Assembly: GCA_027623655.1 (NCBI GenBank)
Contig: JAQBVG010000007.1
Span: 1 to 48,066, forward strand
Direction of reading: 5' to 3'
Source of the DNA: Chloroflexota bacterium
GTDB taxonomy: Bacteria; Chloroflexota; Dehalococcoidia; Lucifugimonadales; Lucifugimonadaceae
DNA: 48,066 nt
Position numbers and translations under genes: made by a program
Part shown: in pieces, positions 34,349 through 44,350 of the stretch
How the letters are laid out: each line of letters opens with the position of its first letter
Numbering within the stretch: the first letter of the stretch is position 1
Notes under the pieces: model-generated
The model's input: the letters and a program-made list of their open reading frames with translations, nothing else
Told to the model about the DNA's origin: nothing
The model's database searches: none

Positions 34349-35578
34349 TTGCCAAACGTCCAGTCCCTGCGCTGCAAAGAGTGTGGTCGTGACTACCCCC
34401 TGGAACCGATCTACGTCTGCGACTTTTGTTTCGGGCCATTGGAAGTTGCCTACGACTACGATGCCGTAGCCAAAAACATGAGCCGCGAGTCTATCCAGGA
34501 CGGTCCACTCACCATATGGCGATATGACCAGCTCCTGCCAGCCAGTCGAGAAAACGCCGTAGACATTGGCGCGGGAATGACGCCACTGCTAAAGGCAGAC
34601 AATCTTGGTCGTGAGCTGGGCCTCAACAATCTCTGGATAAAGAACGATTCGGCCAACCCAACACATTCATTCAAAGACCGTGTGGTATCGGTTGCGACCA
34701 CCAAGGCGCTTGAGTTCGAATTCGATACGATCGCATGTGCTTCAACAGGAAATCTTGCAGGCGCAACCGCTGCTCATGGAGCCAAAGCTGGCATGAGAAC
34801 GATAGTGTTCCTTCCCGCCGATCTCGAACGAGGCAAGATACTCGGCGCTGCTATATTCGGTTCTGTGGTGCTCGTAAATGGGAACTACGACGACGTGAAC
34901 AGACTCTGCTCGGAACTCGGTGATGACCGTCGGTGGGCGTTCGTAAATATCAACATGCGCCCTTATTACTCCGAGGGGAGTAAATCGCTGGGTTTTGAAC
35001 TGGCCGAACAACTTGGATGGCGTGCGCCTGAACACGTCATCGTCCCGGTTGCGTCGGGGTCGCTGTTTACGAAGGTGTACAAAGGCCTGCAAGAGTTTGC
35101 ACAAATAGGAATCATCGACAGCGCCGATACAAAGATGCACATTGCTCAACCTGCAGGTTGTTCGCCAGTTGCGACCGCCTTCATAGACGGCCAAACGCAT
35201 CCAAAACCCGTAGTTCCCAACACTGTTGCCAAGTCCCTCGCAATCGGCAGTCCGGCAGACGGCTACTACTCTGTCGGCATTGCCAACAAGACCGGCGGGT
35301 CCGCGACCATCGTACCGGAGAGTGAAGTCGCTGAAGGAATGAAACTCCTTGCACAGACCGAGGGAATATTCACCGAGACCGCTGGTGGGGTGGTTATCTC
35401 GGCATTACGCCGCCTGGCACGAGATGGCGTGATTGGCCGTGACGAAAAAACGGTGGCGCTGATAACCGGCACCGGCCTCAAGACCCTTGAGGCTATTGCC
35501 GACTCTGTTGAAACCAAAACGATTGAGCCGACCGTCAGATCGTTCGACGAGATCGTGATGGAAACGGTGGTCAACTAA
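34349..35578 (+). CDS. thrC: Threonine synthase-family PLP enzyme
   Basis: TTG start; N-terminal CKECGRDYPLEPIYVCDFCFGPLEVAYDYD, PLP lysine NPTHSFKDRVV, STGNLAGATAAHGAKAGM. Exact reaction not proven. Confidence 0.85.
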   Translation: MPNVQSLRCKECGRDYPLEPIYVCDFCFGPLEVAYDYDAVAKNMSRESIQDGPLTIWRYDQLLPASRENAVDIGAGMTPLLKADNLGRELGLNNLWIKNDSANPTHSFKDRVVSVATTKALEFEFDTIACASTGNLAGATAAHGAKAGMRTIVFLPADLERGKILGAAIFGSVVLVNGNYDDVNRLCSELGDDRRWAFVNINMRPYYSEGSKSLGFELAEQLGWRAPEHVIVPVASGSLFTKVYKGLQEFAQIGIIDSADTKMHIAQPAGCSPVATAFIDGQTHPKPVVPNTVAKSLAIGSPADGYYSVGIANKTGGSATIVPESEVAEGMKLLAQTEGIFTETAGGVVISALRRLARDGVIGRDEKTVALITGTGLKTLEAIADSVETKTIEPTVRSFDEIVMETVVN

Positions 35579-35820
35579 TGCCTCTTCGCAGAGTTACATT
35601 TGTGTTCAAGACCGAACTCATTCGACGACCGGTTATCTACGAGCTCGGTAAGAAGTTCGAGATCGTAACCAATATTCGCCGTGCGGAAGTTGGACAGGAA
35701 GACGGCTGGGTAGTTCTGGAACTGGAGGGAACACTCGATGAAATCGATCGCGGCCTGGAGTGGGTCACCGCACAGGGTGTAGGGGTCAGTTCAATCGACG
35801 GCGATATCCTCGCCGGGTGA
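35578..35820 (+). CDS. NIL-domain protein
   Basis: VTFVFKTELIRRPVIYELGKKFEIVTNIRRAEVGQEDGWVVLELEGTLDEIDRGLEWVTAQGVGVSSID; stop/start overlap TAATG with thrC. Confidence 0.85.
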   Translation: MPLRRVTFVFKTELIRRPVIYELGKKFEIVTNIRRAEVGQEDGWVVLELEGTLDEIDRGLEWVTAQGVGVSSIDGDILAG

Positions 35821-35987
35821 GTTTCGTTGATATGTGTTCAGTAATGATCTACTGATAACGTATCGCCAGAAAACGCAGCACCGCACCGCCCGTATTTGCG
35901 TCTAACATAACTGCAGAAACTTGACGTTGTGACTTTTCAACGAACCGCTGAGCTTCACCAGTCATACCGTGAGAAACAGGAAACTTG

Positions 35988-36269
35988 ATGTCCGTAACCG
36001 TAAAAATTCCAACACCGCTCAGGAAACTGACGAACGGCGAAACCAGCGTCGATGTAGACGGAGCGACCGTAAAAGCTGTCGTCGAGTCGCTTGAAAGTTC
36101 GTTTCCAGGGATGCGTGATCGGCTTATCGACGAATCGGGCGGCCTTCGTCACTTCGTCAACATCTACCTGAACGGTGAAGACGTTCGATACCTCGAAGGT
36201 CTCAACAGCCCTGTGGGTGATCGTGACGAACTGAGCATCGTTCCCGCGGTGGCCGGTGGTCTGAGATAA
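35988..36269 (+). CDS. CysO/MoaD/ThiS-type ubiquitin-like sulfur carrier, C-terminus ...AVAGGLR
   Basis: MSVTVKIPTPLRKLTNGETSVDVDGATVKAVVESLESSFPGMRDRLIDESGGLRHFVNIYLNGEDVRYLEGLNSPVGDRDELSIVPAVAGGLR; AGGA upstream of ATG 35988. Confidence 0.9.
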   Translation: MSVTVKIPTPLRKLTNGETSVDVDGATVKAVVESLESSFPGMRDRLIDESGGLRHFVNIYLNGEDVRYLEGLNSPVGDRDELSIVPAVAGGLR

Positions 36270-36313: not shown

Positions 36314-36347
36314 CACCCTTCTCAGGTCATCCGAGCAGGGTGTTTTT
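36314..36347 (+). terminator. Rho-independent terminator after the CysO-like gene
   Basis: CACCCT...AGGGTG stem (inner ctc/gag pairing) followed by TTTTT. Confidence 0.75.
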
Positions 36348-37128: not shown

Positions 37129-38241
37129 CTACCTGAGAATCGCTTCGACAGCATCCAGAACCATGTCGTCTGGGACATCGCGTCGGGTAGTCGCCTGACC
37201 GGGGCCATCGAGCAGCACCCAGCGAATCGTTCCACCGCGTGACTTTTTGTCGCTCTTTGTTGCGTTGATCAGATCTTCAGCCCGTAAACCGCTTGCCGTG
37301 ACCGGCAGGTTGTAACTTTCAAGCACTTTTCGCTGTCGACCGACCAGTTCGGAATCGATCATCCCCAGGCGCTCGGCGATTCCCGCCGCAGCCATCATCC
37401 CGATAGAGACCGCTTCACCGTGCAGGTATTTTCCGTACCCGGAAACCGTCTCGATTGCGTGGCCTACTGTGTGTCCGTAGTTCAACAGAACCCGACGATC
37501 ACCTGTCTCGTACTCGTCCTCTGAGACGATCTCAGCTTTGATCGCGACGCTTCTTCGTATCGCTTCGACCGGGGCATCACCTTCGAGTTTGATCAGCTGC
37601 GGCGTAAACCGCTCGAACTTGTCCAGCAGGTCAGCGTCGAGAATCAGGCCGTGTTTCACGGCCTCGGCCCATCCGGCTGCCATTTCACGCGGTGGAAGCG
37701 TAGACAGGTGTCCGATGTCCTGTACTACCAGTTTCGGCTGGTGAAACGCGCCCAGCAGATTCTTGCCTTTAGGTATGTTCACACCGGTCTTTCCGCCGAT
37801 AGAGGAATCGACCATTGCCGCAAGACTGGTCGGTACGTGTACGACTGGAACTCCCCTCAGCCACGTTGCCGCCGCAAAGCCAACCAGATCACCGGTGACA
37901 CCTCCCCCCATGGCTACAAGGATGTCGCCTCGCTCTGCACGTTGATCCGCGAGCCAGGAATAAACGATTTCGACCGTCTGCAGGTTCTTGTTTGATTCGC
38001 CGATTTCAAGCGCGAGGACATGTGTTTCGTACCCCCCACGCTCAAGAGCTTCCTGCGCCCTTCGAATCGGGTTGGGGAACATCACTTCGTCGGCGACCAG
38101 AAAAACTCTGCCGCGTAGTCCAGTGGACCGGAGCTCGAATCCGAGATCGTCCACGATATCCCGGCCGACGAGTACCCGGTAGCTACCCTGGCTGGTGTTT
38201 ACTACAGCGGCGAGGTTTGTGTCCTGCATGCTCTCAGGCAC
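37129..38241 (-). CDS. aroB: 3-dehydroquinate synthase
   Basis: AMGGGVTGDLVGFAAATWLRGVPVVHVPTSLAAMVDSSIGGKTGVN; LNYGHTVGHAIE. Confidence 0.97.
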   Translation of the reverse strand: MPESMQDTNLAAVVNTSQGSYRVLVGRDIVDDLGFELRSTGLRGRVFLVADEVMFPNPIRRAQEALERGGYETHVLALEIGESNKNLQTVEIVYSWLADQRAERGDILVAMGGGVTGDLVGFAAATWLRGVPVVHVPTSLAAMVDSSIGGKTGVNIPKGKNLLGAFHQPKLVVQDIGHLSTLPPREMAAGWAEAVKHGLILDADLLDKFERFTPQLIKLEGDAPVEAIRRSVAIKAEIVSEDEYETGDRRVLLNYGHTVGHAIETVSGYGKYLHGEAVSIGMMAAAGIAERLGMIDSELVGRQRKVLESYNLPVTASGLRAEDLINATKSDKKSRGGTIRWVLLDGPGQATTRRDVPDDMVLDAVEAILR

Positions 38242-38791
38242 CCGAAGCCGTCATTTCACTTGCTCTCCAGGCGTCGGCGACCGCCTGTGCGACATCGTCG
38301 TGGGATTTCCCTTCAGTATCCACGGCGATATCCGCTATGGCGTAGAACTCTTCACGTTCAAGCAGCATTTCGCGGATCTTTTCCAGCGGTGCGTCGTCAC
38401 CCAGGAGTGGTCGAAGGATGCGACCTCGCTGTGGTGCTGCGCTTACGAGTCGACGGTGGATAACTTCGGGTCTGGCGTTCAATCGAATTACCAGCCCCGA
38501 TCTCGTCATGATATTACGGTTCTGCTCCCGCACTGGTGTACCGCCGCCAGTTGAAACTACCCGTCCGCCCCGTGCAGCAACTTCTTCAAGGATTTGAGAT
38601 TCAAGATCGCGGAAGTACGACTCGCCATTCTCTTCAAATATGCGTGGTATCGGTTTCCCGGCTCGGTCTTCAATGACGCCGTCGAGTTCAACAAACGGCC
38701 ATTCGAGAATTTCTGCGGCGCGCCTGCCCGACCTGGTCTTTCCGGTGCCGGAAAGACCAATCAGGTAGATATTTGGTTTCGAAGAAGCCAA
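38234..38791 (-). CDS. aroK: Shikimate kinase
   Basis: IYLIGLSGTGKTRSGRRAAEILEWPFVELDG, IFEENGESYFRDLE, VVSTGGGTPV; overlaps the aroB start. Confidence 0.94.
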   Translation of the reverse strand: MASSKPNIYLIGLSGTGKTRSGRRAAEILEWPFVELDGVIEDRAGKPIPRIFEENGESYFRDLESQILEEVAARGGRVVSTGGGTPVREQNRNIMTRSGLVIRLNARPEVIHRRLVSAAPQRGRILRPLLGDDAPLEKIREMLLEREEFYAIADIAVDTEGKSHDDVAQAVADAWRASEMTASGA

Positions 38792-38836
38792 TCCGGTCGA
38801 TTCTCCCGCCAGGACGTTTGCATTTGACCGCTTCTG

Positions 38837-40018
38837 CTATCGCGGTCCGAATTGTTGATGTGACTCCACATACCCGGCATAGTTGCGTTTGATTTCATCC
38901 AACGAATCGCCGCCGAATTTCTCGAGGAACGCATCGGTGAGTACCAGCGCCATCATTGCTTCACCCACCGGGCAAGCTCGGGCAACCTGGCAAATGTCAC
39001 TTCGATTGTAGGCCGCTTCGACAACTTCGCCCGTATTGATGTCGACTGACGGCAACGGCCTGGTCATGGTGGCGATAGGTTTGATAGCCACGTTTGTGAC
39101 GATTGGCTGCCCATTCGACATCCCGCCTTCGATTCCGCCAGCATGATTGGATGTCTGGCTGAACTTCCGCGGATCAGCGGGGTTGGGAACAATTACATCA
39201 TGTACTTCCCTCCCCGGCTTTCGAGTGTTGGCGAAGCCGGTGCCGATCTCGACGCCTTTGACGGCGTTTATGCTCATCATTGCCTGCGCCAGTCGTGCGT
39301 CTAGCTTTCGATCCCAGTGAACGTAACTCCCAAGCCCCACCGGTGCTCCAAACGCCACGACCTCGAATACCCCGCCGATAGTCGTACGGTCATCTTTCGA
39401 TTTGTCGATAGCAGCTTTGAATCGCGCATCGGCATCCGCATCGGAGGCTCGAACTTCCGACGCCTCGACTGCTTCCCAGTCGACATCTTCAGTCGCCACC
39501 GAGCGTCCATCTTCACTGCCGGTCGCAACCGCCCGCGAGTGGATCGAGATCCCGAACTCGTCTAGCAGACGCCGGGCCACGGACGCGGCCGCGACACGGG
39601 CTGCGGTTTCGCGCGCACTCGCCCGTTCAAGCACATTTCTCAGATCGTGCTGTACATATTTCAACGCTCCGGGGAAGTCGGCGTGCCCGGGAACGACCCT
39701 GGTTTGAACTTTCTTGTCGATATCGTCAGCGACCGGAGCGACCGACATCGCATCGGTCCAGTTGGCGAAATCGCGGTTCTCGATCCACATGGCGATCGGT
39801 GAGCCAAGGGTTATGCCATGCCGGACGCCCGACCTGATGTCGGCACGATCCTTCTCGATCTTCATCCGGCCGCCAGAGCCGTAGCCCTTCTGACGACGAG
39901 ACATTTCTGCCTCGATGTACTTTTCGGTCAGTGCGAGGCCAGCCGGCATGCCTTCCACGATCACAGTCAGGCCGGGCCCGTGTGATTCCCCTGCGGTCAG
40001 GTAGCGGAATACTGTCAT
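38837..40018 (-). CDS. aroC: Chorismate synthase
   Basis: RYLTAGESHGPGLTVIVEGMPAG, RRQKGYGSGGRMKIE, GGIEGGMSNGQPI. Confidence 0.97.
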   Translation of the reverse strand: MTVFRYLTAGESHGPGLTVIVEGMPAGLALTEKYIEAEMSRRQKGYGSGGRMKIEKDRADIRSGVRHGITLGSPIAMWIENRDFANWTDAMSVAPVADDIDKKVQTRVVPGHADFPGALKYVQHDLRNVLERASARETAARVAAASVARRLLDEFGISIHSRAVATGSEDGRSVATEDVDWEAVEASEVRASDADADARFKAAIDKSKDDRTTIGGVFEVVAFGAPVGLGSYVHWDRKLDARLAQAMMSINAVKGVEIGTGFANTRKPGREVHDVIVPNPADPRKFSQTSNHAGGIEGGMSNGQPIVTNVAIKPIATMTRPLPSVDINTGEVVEAAYNRSDICQVARACPVGEAMMALVLTDAFLEKFGGDSLDEIKRNYAGYVESHQQFGPR

Positions 40019-40126
40019 TTGTCCTGTTTCTTGTTACGCCCAGCAGACCGATTACCCCGGTCAGTGGAATCGAATCCCGACACCGGGGATGAATTTCGAA
40101 CCTCGATTATAGGCAGTTACAGCCAG

Positions 40127-40978
40127 CTAACCAGATTTAAGCGCCTGCTCGATTGCCGAAAACATTGTTTCGACCGGTGCTTTTTGCCCGGTTGCCATCT
40201 CAAACCCCTCAATTCCCTGGAACACGAGCATTGTGATTCCGCCCGCGCTACGGCCTCCGGCGTTTTCTACTTCGGTCAGGAACGGGGTCATGGGCGGAGC
40301 ATAGACAGCGTCGTAACCGACTGCATCGGCAGAAATCATGTCCGCCGTGATCGGAGTGGCGAATTCTGCGGGGCCACCGGCCATACCAAGCGATGTTGTG
40401 TTCACGAGAAGTGTCGCGTACGGAACGTAATCGACCAACTCGTCACGACTCATCCCGATGGCATTTGGTTTGAACCGACCTTCTGAAAAATGGGACGCGA
40501 GGGCCTGTGCCTTTTCGAGGGTCCTGTTCGCTATTGTGAGACGGCCAACGCCCGCTGTCTTCAGCGCGTAGACGATCGCCCTCGCCGCACCGCCGGAGCC
40601 GAAAACGACAGCGTCGACACCCCCGGGGTCGAACCCAGCTTTTTCACGTAGAGCCCTGATAAACCCGGTTCCGTCGGTGTTGTGCCCAACGAGTTTTCCG
40701 TTTCGGTTAAATATCCAGTTGACGGCTCCGACAGCCTGGGCAGCCTCGGTGAGCTCATCGACCAGCGGAATCACTGCCTGCTTATGAGGCAAGGTCACGC
40801 AGGCGGCAAGAAAACCTTCGGCCCTGAAGGTTTTGACTTTTTCTTCCAGCTCATCGGGAAGTACGTCCCAGGCCTCGAACTTCTCATCAATGCCAAGTTC
40901 GTCCAGGCCCGCCTGCTGGAACACCGGCGATTTCGTGTGTCCGATCGGATGGCCCATCACGCCAATATTGCTACTCAT
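40127..40978 (-). CDS. aroE: Shikimate dehydrogenase
   Basis: GVMGHPIGHTKSPVFQQAG, VTLPHKQAVIP, GSGGAARAIVYAL, TNTTSLGM-type VNTTSLGM. Confidence 0.95.
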   Translation of the reverse strand: MSSNIGVMGHPIGHTKSPVFQQAGLDELGIDEKFEAWDVLPDELEEKVKTFRAEGFLAACVTLPHKQAVIPLVDELTEAAQAVGAVNWIFNRNGKLVGHNTDGTGFIRALREKAGFDPGGVDAVVFGSGGAARAIVYALKTAGVGRLTIANRTLEKAQALASHFSEGRFKPNAIGMSRDELVDYVPYATLLVNTTSLGMAGGPAEFATPITADMISADAVGYDAVYAPPMTPFLTEVENAGGRSAGGITMLVFQGIEGFEMATGQKAPVETMFSAIEQALKSG

Positions 40979-41018
40979 TCATCTCCAATTGCAGCCGGTC
41001 CGGCCACGGGTCATTTGA

Positions 41019-41435
41019 CTAAATTCGCACCGAATGCATGTACGCATTAAGAATTATCGCGGCGGAAGCTGAATCGATCTTTCCGCGATCCGCGCCACGT
41101 GCTTTCGTGGGAGATTTCCCTGCTGCCCTCAGCAGCGACTGCGCCTCGAGAGTGGTCATGCGTTCGTCCCACAGAGCCACTGGTATGTCGGTAACCGCTC
41201 GAAGTCGACTGCAGAACGCATTCACTTTCTTTGACGCGGGCCCGTGGGTTCCGTCGAGCGATAGCGGAAGTCCGACCACGATCTTGATTACACCGTTCTC
41301 AGTCGCGATTCGTGCGACGCGTAGTGCATCATCTTTTCCGGCCGCCGGTATCGCACTGATCGGAGTTGCAATCGTGCCGGTAGGATCACTCAGCGCGAGT
41401 CCAATCCTTACTTCACCGTAATCGACACCGAGCAT
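41019..41435 (-). CDS. ruvX: YqgF/RuvX-family putative Holliday junction resolvase
   Basis: MLGVDYGEVRIGLALSDPTGTIATPI, VVGLPLSLDGTHGPASKKV, WDERMTTLEA, DSASAAIILNAYM. Confidence 0.94.
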   Translation of the reverse strand: MLGVDYGEVRIGLALSDPTGTIATPISAIPAAGKDDALRVARIATENGVIKIVVGLPLSLDGTHGPASKKVNAFCSRLRAVTDIPVALWDERMTTLEAQSLLRAAGKSPTKARGADRGKIDSASAAIILNAYMHSVRI

Positions 41436-41503
41436 TCGTCTATTTTCAGGTGAATGGTGTTCCGATTCCCGGCGACCGTCTGATATTGATGGGGGCGCGG
41501 CGA

Positions 41504-44350
41504 TTACTTACTCCCGGATCCATTTTTCAGGGAAGAACGAATGATTTCCTCGGCCGAGTTCAGTGCGGCGGTCAGTTGATCTGCATGCTTGCCACCGGCC
41601 TGCGCAACGGCTGGGCTGCCACCACCACCGCCACCCATCCTGCCAGCGATATCCCTGGCGATATTGCCGGCGTGAATACCAGCTTTGACACTGTCCTCTG
41701 TCGCCATGACGACAACCATTGGGCGGCTCTCGATGACACTTCCCAGTATCACCACGCCGTTGCCGATCCGGTTCTTGAGATGGTCGCCCGTTTTTCTCAG
41801 AGCATTTACGTTCGACGCCGGTATTTCGCTGACTTCGATGTGGATGGTAGCGCCGTTCGACTCGATATCGAATCCGACGGTCTTACCGCTCGAACTGCCG
41901 CCGCCGACGCTCGAGTCGAGCAGTTGTTGCTCCAATTGCGAAACCTGTTTGCGGGCTCGCTCAAGTTCCTTCGACAGTACATCAACCCGGCTACTCACTT
42001 CGGAAACAGGAATGCGTAACCTCGAAGCAACTTCGTCGAGCGTGCCAAAGCGTTCGAAAATCGCCTGTTCAGAGGCCAGTCCCGTGATTGCCTCCATCCG
42101 TCGCATGCCAGAGCCAATCCCGGTTTCAGAAACGATCACGAATGTCCCGATCCCGCCCGTGTAGTCCATGTGGGTACCGCCGCAAAGTTCGTAACTCCAC
42201 GGTGCATCGATTTTGATCGTGCGGACTTCGTTGTCGTAGGTGTCACCGAAGAAGGCGAGAGCTCCCTCTTCGACAGCCTCTCCGTAGGTGGTGAAATGGA
42301 CTTCGACGGGACGGTTAAGTCGAATTTTCTCGTTCACGCGGTCCTGAACAGCCCTGATCTGTTGCGGGGTCAGGGCTTGCATGTGCGTGTAGTCGAACCG
42401 GAGTCGGTCTGCGTCAACAACCGAGCCCGCCTGTCGAACGTGGCTGCCGACAATTTCACGCAGCGCGGCGTGCACGAGGTGAGTTGCAGTGTGGTTCCGG
42501 CGGATACGCTCGCGCCGTTGTCCATCGACCGTGGCAGTCACTGAGGCGTTTGTGGAAACGGTACCAGACGTGACAGTGCCGAAATGAACGTTTACATGAC
42601 CGTAAGGCGCCTGGGTGTCTGTCACATTGAACACGGATCCGTCACCTGAAATTACGCCGGTGTCACCAACCTGCCCCCCCCGGGCCGCATAAAAAGGCGT
42701 CTCGGCAAGGACGATCTCGATTTCGTCGCCTTCGCTGGCTGATTCAACAGCTTTGCCGCTTTTTACGATCGCGGTAACGGAAGTTTCTGAGCTCAGCGTT
42801 TCATATCCAAAAAAGGGGGTGTCCTCCAGGCTCAGTTCCTCGTAGACACGGGTTCCGTTTTTGTTTCCGCCGAAACCGCCAGCAGAACGACCACGCTCCC
42901 GCTGGGCCTCCATTTCTCGTACAAACCCGTCGCGGTCAATGGCGAGGTCGGCTTCACCTGCGACCTCTTCCGTAACCTCTATTGGGTAGCCGTACGTGTC
43001 ATACAGCACGAAAGCCTCTGAGCCTGAAACACGATTACGCCAGGCATCGGAATTTTGTGTGTCTCCGGCCAACACCAATCGTTCGATTTCCTCGATTGCC
43101 AGCCGCGTACCGACGGAGTGACCGTCATCGCCATTGGGCAGAGCGGGAGGATCACCAGTTCTGAACTTTTCTCCTGCGTCAGGATTACCCACTCGGTAGT
43201 CAATCATCCCGGAGAGAACAGACGCCCCGAATTCGAGTGTGCGTGAGAAGCTATTTTCTTCCTGCTCGAGGACGTCTTTGATAAATCCCTGATTGCTGAT
43301 CAACTCGGGGTAAACATGCCCCATCCGGTCGGTCACCGATTGAGCGACAGCCGACAGCATAGGCGTTTCCATTCCAAGTTCACGGCCGAACAACATGCCC
43401 CGGCGTATTAGTCGTCTGAGGACGTAGCCACGACCAGAATTGCCGGGTATGACGCCATCACCGATCAGGAATGAGGCAGAGCGGGCGTGTTCAGCGACTA
43501 CGCGAATAGCTGTGTCGGTCTGTTTATCCTGTCCCCACTCTTTTCCACATAGTTGTTCGACTCGTGCAATTATCGGACGGAACGCATCGGTTTCGTAGAT
43601 GTTTGACACTCCCTGTAATACCGCCAGCATGCGCTCGAAACCCATGCCCGTATCGATGTTTTTTGCGGGAAGCACCGTGTCGTTGCCGTCGAGGTCCCGG
43701 TAGTACTGTGTGAATACCAGGTTGTAAAGTTCCACGAAATCGTCGTGGTAGTTGGGACCCCACCTGTCAGTTCGGACCGGGTCGTGGACGGCAGGTACAT
43801 CGTCGAGCGAACCACGATAGTAGTTGATCTCGGAACTGGGCCCACATACGCCTTCGTCTCCGGCGGGGCCCCACCAGTTGTCTTCGTCGCCGAACCTGTA
43901 GATTCTTTCAGGTGGAATTCCGAGATCGAGCCATATCTGTTCGGCCTCGTCGTCGGTGTCGTAAACGGTGTAGTAAAGGCGTTCAGGATTAAGGCCGAAT
44001 TCATTGACCAGGAGATCGAGTGCCCAGGCGCAGGCCTCCCGCTTGAAGTAATCGCCGAAGCTGAAATTACCCAACATTTCGAACATCGTAAGGTGGGTAT
44101 CGTCCCCGACTTCTTCGATATCCGTCGTACGGAAACACTTTTGTGACGTCGTTATCCGTGGGTGTGGCGGCTCCTTCTCTCCCGAAAAATATGGCTTGAA
44201 CTGAGCCATGCCCGAGTTCGTTAGCAGAAGAGTCGGGTCGGCCGCCGGTATCAGCGATGCGGATGGCATTCGCAGGTGGTCGTGACGTTCAAAGTACGCT
44301 AAAAACGCCTCGCGTAAATCGTCAGCAGTCTTCGGTGGACTCGAACTCAT
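41504..44350 (-). CDS. alaS: Alanyl-tRNA synthetase
   Basis: LLLTNSGMAQFKPYFSGEKEPPHPRITTSQKCFRTTDIEEVG, NHTATHLVHAALREIVG, CGGTHMDYTGGIG, GGGGGGSPAVAQAGG. Confidence 0.98.
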   Translation of the reverse strand: MSSSPPKTADDLREAFLAYFERHDHLRMPSASLIPAADPTLLLTNSGMAQFKPYFSGEKEPPHPRITTSQKCFRTTDIEEVGDDTHLTMFEMLGNFSFGDYFKREACAWALDLLVNEFGLNPERLYYTVYDTDDEAEQIWLDLGIPPERIYRFGDEDNWWGPAGDEGVCGPSSEINYYRGSLDDVPAVHDPVRTDRWGPNYHDDFVELYNLVFTQYYRDLDGNDTVLPAKNIDTGMGFERMLAVLQGVSNIYETDAFRPIIARVEQLCGKEWGQDKQTDTAIRVVAEHARSASFLIGDGVIPGNSGRGYVLRRLIRRGMLFGRELGMETPMLSAVAQSVTDRMGHVYPELISNQGFIKDVLEQEENSFSRTLEFGASVLSGMIDYRVGNPDAGEKFRTGDPPALPNGDDGHSVGTRLAIEEIERLVLAGDTQNSDAWRNRVSGSEAFVLYDTYGYPIEVTEEVAGEADLAIDRDGFVREMEAQRERGRSAGGFGGNKNGTRVYEELSLEDTPFFGYETLSSETSVTAIVKSGKAVESASEGDEIEIVLAETPFYAARGGQVGDTGVISGDGSVFNVTDTQAPYGHVNVHFGTVTSGTVSTNASVTATVDGQRRERIRRNHTATHLVHAALREIVGSHVRQAGSVVDADRLRFDYTHMQALTPQQIRAVQDRVNEKIRLNRPVEVHFTTYGEAVEEGALAFFGDTYDNEVRTIKIDAPWSYELCGGTHMDYTGGIGTFVIVSETGIGSGMRRMEAITGLASEQAIFERFGTLDEVASRLRIPVSEVSSRVDVLSKELERARKQVSQLEQQLLDSSVGGGSSSGKTVGFDIESNGATIHIEVSEIPASNVNALRKTGDHLKNRIGNGVVILGSVIESRPMVVVMATEDSVKAGIHAGNIARDIAGRMGGGGGGSPAVAQAGGKHADQLTAALNSAEEIIRSSLKNGSGSK

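Follow-up and report, generated by a model that had tools for sequence, protein, structure and literature searches.

A threonine synthase-like enzyme, a small NIL-domain protein and a sulfur carrier encoded together in a Lucifugimonadaceae genome: a probable methionine-pathway operon of the MetM/MetO kind

The window analysed here is a 48,066-nucleotide stretch of DNA from a Chloroflexota bacterium of the class Dehalococcoidia, family Lucifugimonadaceae (GenBank assembly GCA_027623655.1, contig JAQBVG010000007.1). It contains three genes in close succession, which encode a ThrC-like pyridoxal phosphate (PLP) enzyme, a small stand-alone NIL-domain protein and a ubiquitin-fold sulfur carrier (Table 1). 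The stop codon of the enzyme gene and the ATG of the NIL gene overlap by one base within TAATG. An earlier sequence-only reading had described these genes and their overlap, and the open reading frames and profile matches agree with it on every position. The Pfam matches are PALP for the enzyme (227 bits), ThiS PF02597 for the carrier (57 bits) and PF09383 for the NIL protein (45.7 bits against a cut-off of 24). The natural start of the carrier is probably the second M of its reading frame. A terminator had also been proposed behind the carrier gene. A hairpin with a T run does lie there, but terminator-like sites around the locus number 4 against 2.7 expected from shuffled sequence, which is not a clear excess.

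Table 1. Features at and around the three-gene locus (positions within the window)
Feature	Position	Strand	Remarks
ORF of 101 aa	33773-34078		match limited to a short internal segment of ABC-F ATPases; resembles the remnant of a longer gene
ThrC-like PLP enzyme	34349-35578	+	TTG start, 409 aa
Small stand-alone NIL-domain protein	35578-35820	+	80 aa
CysO/SAMP/MetO-like ubiquitin-fold sulfur carrier	35985-36269	+	94-aa ORF
Terminator-like hairpin with T run, 3' of carrier gene	36328-36342	+	weak
aroB, aroK, aroC, aroE, ruvX, alaS run	37129-44350	-	named by eye from translations

The window enzyme is a fold type II protein with an N-terminal CxxC...CxxC zinc-ribbon-like segment. Threonine synthases are its closest relatives in sequence, and it passes the TIGR00260 profile (257 bits against a cut-off of 167). 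Its match to the cysKM profile is 36 bits against a cut-off of 344, which places it outside the CysK/M family. The source genome (G000), a metagenome-assembled genome (MAG) that is 91% complete, encodes four ThrC-like proteins. One of these, located elsewhere, is a canonical ThrC: it scores 321 bits to TIGR00260, shares 57-62% identity with threonine synthases of Bacillales and actinobacteria, and is encoded directly 3' of a homoserine dehydrogenase gene. In a tree of 48 proteins built by a quick method, 31 rows that include the window enzyme and a Nonomuraea protein (L152) are split from canonical ThrC with an SH-aLRT of 100. The Nonomuraea protein serves in this tree as a stand-in for Streptomyces MetM, as there is no S. 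albulus MetM row. Actinobacterial, cyanobacterial, Nitrospirota and Aquificaceae proteins also belong to this clade. The two groups are near-fixed for differing residues at 26 diagnostic columns; at four of these, where Thermus ThrC has S155, N157, R160 and N188, the window enzyme has N, R, Y and S. We take S155, R160 and N188 to be contacts to the substrate phosphate. Because these candidate phosphate-site residues are replaced, the enzyme may not bind O-phosphohomoserine, although there is an Arg three positions earlier. Identification as a canonical threonine synthase was rejected because the diagnostic residues are replaced and the protein falls outside the canonical clade. The window enzyme is not the threonine synthase of its genome, and a second ThrC is likewise found in 10/10 cyanobacterial genomes that have the ThrC-like/carrier pair (one split over contigs, one more divergent).

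The carrier has the ThiS/MoaD fold, and its nearest solved structures are CysO of Mycobacterium tuberculosis (3dwg, 6e-22) and chain B of 4n6e. Its C-terminus reads VPAVAGG-LR, a GG followed by two residues, and these two residues are predicted to be removed before thiocarboxylation. GG is at or near the C-terminus in 89 of 91 neighbouring carriers, with 0-7 extra residues: GG is the exact terminus in 52, and the other 37 extend beyond it by one to seven residues, so that many of them would need trimming by a protease. The source genome encodes one E1 of the ThiF/MoeB type, adjoining CysK/M, and two JAB proteins. In the related locus of genome G078 (L064), the genes for ThrC, NIL, CysO, a ThiS/ThiF fusion, CysM and JAB stand in a row. 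A Prok-JAB protein is present in 82/88 genomes with NIL and without HcyBio (DUF39), against 2/48 genomes with HcyBio; because of the shared descent of these genomes, a Fisher test on the counts is a guide only. The source genome also has a fourth carrier of the ThiS fold (96 aa; C55:3039-3260; L021, L215), which is divergent and is encoded beside a molybdenum enzyme gene of the xanthine dehydrogenase type.

The arrangement of the three genes is conserved far beyond chance. Of 20 loci with a small NIL gene from other families of the class, 19 have the ThrC-like gene adjoining NIL (56-65% identity to the window enzyme). The carrier is also present in 15 of these 19, with strand and gene order shared, and a 16th is cut by a contig end; no other neighbour is conserved. 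The exception, G120, has the carrier and NIL, with no ThrC-like gene at that place. ThrC-like and NIL genes occur together in another 17 families of the class as well as in Nitrospirota, Nitrospinota and Methylomirabilota, mostly accompanied by the carrier gene; ThrC-like and carrier genes occur without NIL in Cyanobacteriota, Actinomycetota and Aquificota. Across 80 loci in a scan of public genomes, the carrier lies beside the ThrC-like gene in 74 and NIL in 42 (Table 2). The orders ThrC-NIL-carrier, ThrC-carrier-NIL and NIL-ThrC-carrier were all seen, and this variation argues for a shared function rather than only the inheritance of one block.

Table 2. Carrier and NIL genes beside the ThrC-like gene, by phylum
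Phylum	Carrier	NIL
Chloroflexota	26/32	31/32
Cyanobacteriota	24/24	0/24
Actinomycetota	11/11	0/11
Nitrospirota	8/8	8/8
Methylomirabilota	2/2	2/2
Nitrospinota	2/2	1/2
Aquificota	1/1	0/1

Regulation of the homologous operons provides independent support for a role in homocysteine synthesis. In approximately 580 kb of scanned related loci, all 17 SAM-I riboswitches are directly upstream of the ThrC-like operon, and there is no other SAM-I match. They are found in 11/11 Actinomycetota MAG loci, in Nonomuraea, in two Methylomirabilota loci (L110 and L128, with the order riboswitch-NIL-enzyme-carrier) and in three Chloroflexota loci (L057, L063 and L088). In Nitrospirota L118 (2346-10035), a SAM-II riboswitch precedes metK, ahcY, cysK, E1, ThrC-like, carrier, NIL, E1 and JAB genes, a run that amounts to a whole sulfur amino acid operon. 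No SAM riboswitch was found at the window, even at E<=1. The riboswitch is also absent in Microcystis (PMC12172450) and for this reason was not counted as a defining feature of MetM/MetO.

The source genome encodes a core methionine synthase (core-MetE), and no other known route to homocysteine was found in it. A MetB/MetY/MetC-family PF01053 enzyme was not detectable in this 91% complete MAG, whose PF01053 matches are SufS, aminotransferases and similar proteins; a search for HcyBio also found none. Among the 148 genomes surveyed in the class, 74 have NIL but are without both HcyBio and PF01053, 48 have HcyBio, 14 have NIL and PF01053 without HcyBio, 7 have PF01053 without NIL, and 5 have none of the three. 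In these class-wide counts the presence of NIL is a proxy for the operon, which was read directly only in the fetched loci. The five genomes without an NIL operon, HcyBio or a strong PF01053 match (G009, G077, G087, G099 and G141) could have another homocysteine route, auxotrophy or assembly gaps. Genomes with both HcyBio and PF01053 have a different group of genes, in which a cystathionine-synthase-like enzyme, a ThrC-like protein and NIL are followed by a cysteine desulfurase, an E1 or an AIRS-family protein (L191-L200). This group mostly has no carrier beside it, and a weak carrier match is present only in L193 and L194.

Taken as a whole, the locus is very probably a MetM/MetO-type operon of the methionine pathway, with homocysteine as its product. 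Its enzyme-carrier core is already known. As published, the MetM/MetO methionine route of Streptomyces consists of a ThrC-homologous enzyme and an adjacent sulfur carrier with a SAM riboswitch upstream (Hasebe et al. 2024, AEM 90:e01247-24; PMC12172450). The window likewise has a PLP enzyme homologous to ThrC, which shares a clade with that of Nonomuraea L152, and an adjacent GG carrier, although an exact GG terminus would require trimming; its genome is without a PF01053 sulfhydrylase or synthase and without HcyBio. The Nonomuraea locus has the order SAM riboswitch-enzyme-carrier, and its carrier ends in AVAGG. The window differs in its additional NIL gene overlapping the enzyme gene, in the two residues after the carrier GG, in having no riboswitch and in its phylum.

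Other carrier- or NIL-based systems resemble the locus in part. The CysO-CysM-Mec+ system of Mycobacterium shares a CysO-like carrier, and CysK/M, E1 and JAMM-family genes are present in the source genome and lie beside the operon in relatives. However, the PLP partner at the window belongs to the threonine synthase family rather than being a CysM, and its low cysKM score led us to reject this assignment. HcyS/HcyD of Wolinella uses a MetY-type PF01053 enzyme. The sequence-only reading had drawn a parallel to it, which holds in that a thiocarboxylated carrier is the proposed sulfur source for homocysteine and a JAMM-family protein is encoded in the source genome, but fails for the PLP enzyme, which is of another family; assignment to this system was rejected because the PF01053 sulfhydrylase partner is missing. 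The DUF39/NIL-ferredoxin pathway of Desulfovibrio and methanogens (PMC5764234) also ties an NIL domain to homocysteine synthesis. This assignment was rejected because both HcyBio and a ferredoxin-fused NIL are missing, the window NIL protein having no ferredoxin part.

The reaction, the sulfur transfer and the function of the NIL protein we infer as follows. A JAMM protease would first remove the two extra residues of the carrier, after which the E1 encoded beside the CysK/M gene would activate the terminal GG by adenylation for sulfuration. The ThrC-like enzyme (MetM) would eliminate phosphate from O-phosphohomoserine by PLP chemistry like that of threonine synthase. With the carrier thiocarboxylate as donor, it would then add sulfur at the gamma carbon, whereas threonine synthase adds water at the beta carbon. 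By analogy with CysM/CysO/Mec+, the resulting carrier-homocysteine adduct may be freed by hydrolysis to yield homocysteine, which core-MetE would methylate. A probable role for the NIL protein is that of a feedback or partner subunit with methionine, or homocysteine, as its ligand, in the manner of the MetN NIL domain. In outline this is the mechanism that the sequence-only reading had advanced, with the NIL protein as sensor or partner, and its enzyme-carrier part is the one published for another phylum. The findings support it: the gene order extends across the class and into other phyla, a second, true ThrC is present and the phylogeny separates the window protein from it, and searches for PF01053 enzymes and HcyBio found no complete conventional homocysteine pathway.

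Two other functions for the enzyme were weighed against homocysteine synthesis. It could be a plain or bifunctional threonine synthase, able to deaminate threonine, with the carrier and NIL regulating it or acting elsewhere. Its score to TIGR00260 is in line with this, as is its Microcystis homologue: Microcystis ThrC, reported to be 51.6% identical to MetM, acted in vitro as both a threonine synthase and a deaminase and was not fully MetM-like in vivo (PMC12172450). We consider this improbable given the separate canonical ThrC beside homoserine dehydrogenase in the same genome, the distinct clade and residues of the window enzyme, and the SAM riboswitches and metK/ahcY neighbours at homologous operons. 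A second cysteine synthase, which would use O-phosphoserine or O-acetylserine and the carrier thiocarboxylate in the manner of CysM/CysO, is very improbable. Mycobacterial CysO is the closest relative of the carrier, and CysK/M, E1 and JAB genes adjoin the operon in Nitrospirota and G078, but a CysK/M gene is already present in those clusters and in the source genome, the enzyme is closest to threonine synthases, and regulation by SAM is more in keeping with methionine than with cysteine. Counting against homocysteine synthesis as the best explanation are the lack of a riboswitch at the window, the Microcystis activities, the replaced phosphate-site residues, the 14/88 NIL-containing genomes without HcyBio that also have a PF01053 enzyme, the HcyBio genomes whose ThrC-like/NIL group mostly has no adjacent carrier, and the incompleteness of the MAG.

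For the NIL protein itself, the only solved relatives identified with a profile of 21 NIL proteins are C-terminal regulatory domains of MetN, the methionine importer. In a profile alignment to 3dhx/3dhw, Asn32 falls at the position of N295 in E. coli MetN (the marker chain 6cvl has Ala there), and this position is Asn in 70/78 NIL proteins and Ser in the remainder. The N295A substitution in MetN raises the Ki for L-methionine 28-fold (PMC12357092). From these relatives and the retained Asn, our best guess is that the NIL protein acts as a methionine-sensing regulatory subunit. It could instead be a catalytic or sulfur-transfer partner, as NIL-ferredoxin may be in the DUF39 pathway; NIL-ferredoxin adjoins HcyBio in genomes of this same class, and NIL stands beside nearly every Chloroflexota ThrC-like gene (Table 2), including genes with no carrier beside them. 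This we regard as rather unlikely, since the 80-aa protein has no conserved cysteine, its nearest structures are regulatory, and enzyme and carrier occur without an adjacent NIL in Cyanobacteriota, Actinomycetota and Aquificota. Where NIL is not beside the pair, the reaction can presumably proceed without it.

A conserved NIL third component, and the spread of the system to lineages with no other known route, appear to be new; no description of either was found in the literature. Price et al. (2018) concluded that at least one further homocysteine pathway was to be found and named Aquifex aeolicus and Acidimicrobium ferrooxidans (PMC5764234). The clade is represented in MAGs of Aquificaceae and Acidimicrobiaceae and in half of the Dehalococcoidia sampled, where no other known routes are found. 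Given this spread, 'threonine synthase' labels and predictions of methionine auxotrophy are probably mistaken in many uncultured lineages. It is quite possible, though short of what we would expect outright, that all of the following hold jointly: NIL is a dedicated methionine-sensing third component giving enzyme-level feedback in Chloroflexota, Nitrospirota and Methylomirabilota, the system is the main homocysteine route for about half of the genomes sampled in the class, and its NIL-free form fills the gap for relatives of Aquifex and Acidimicrobium. If so, the MetM/MetO pathway would gain an undescribed element, a small NIL partner that senses methionine at the level of the enzyme, and its role is directly testable. 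A small NIL gene also lies near a stand-alone B12-binding (corrinoid) protein in L201, L203 and L204 (by Pfam match in L203 and by similarity in the others), a neighbourhood perhaps linked to methylcobalamin-dependent methionine synthesis.
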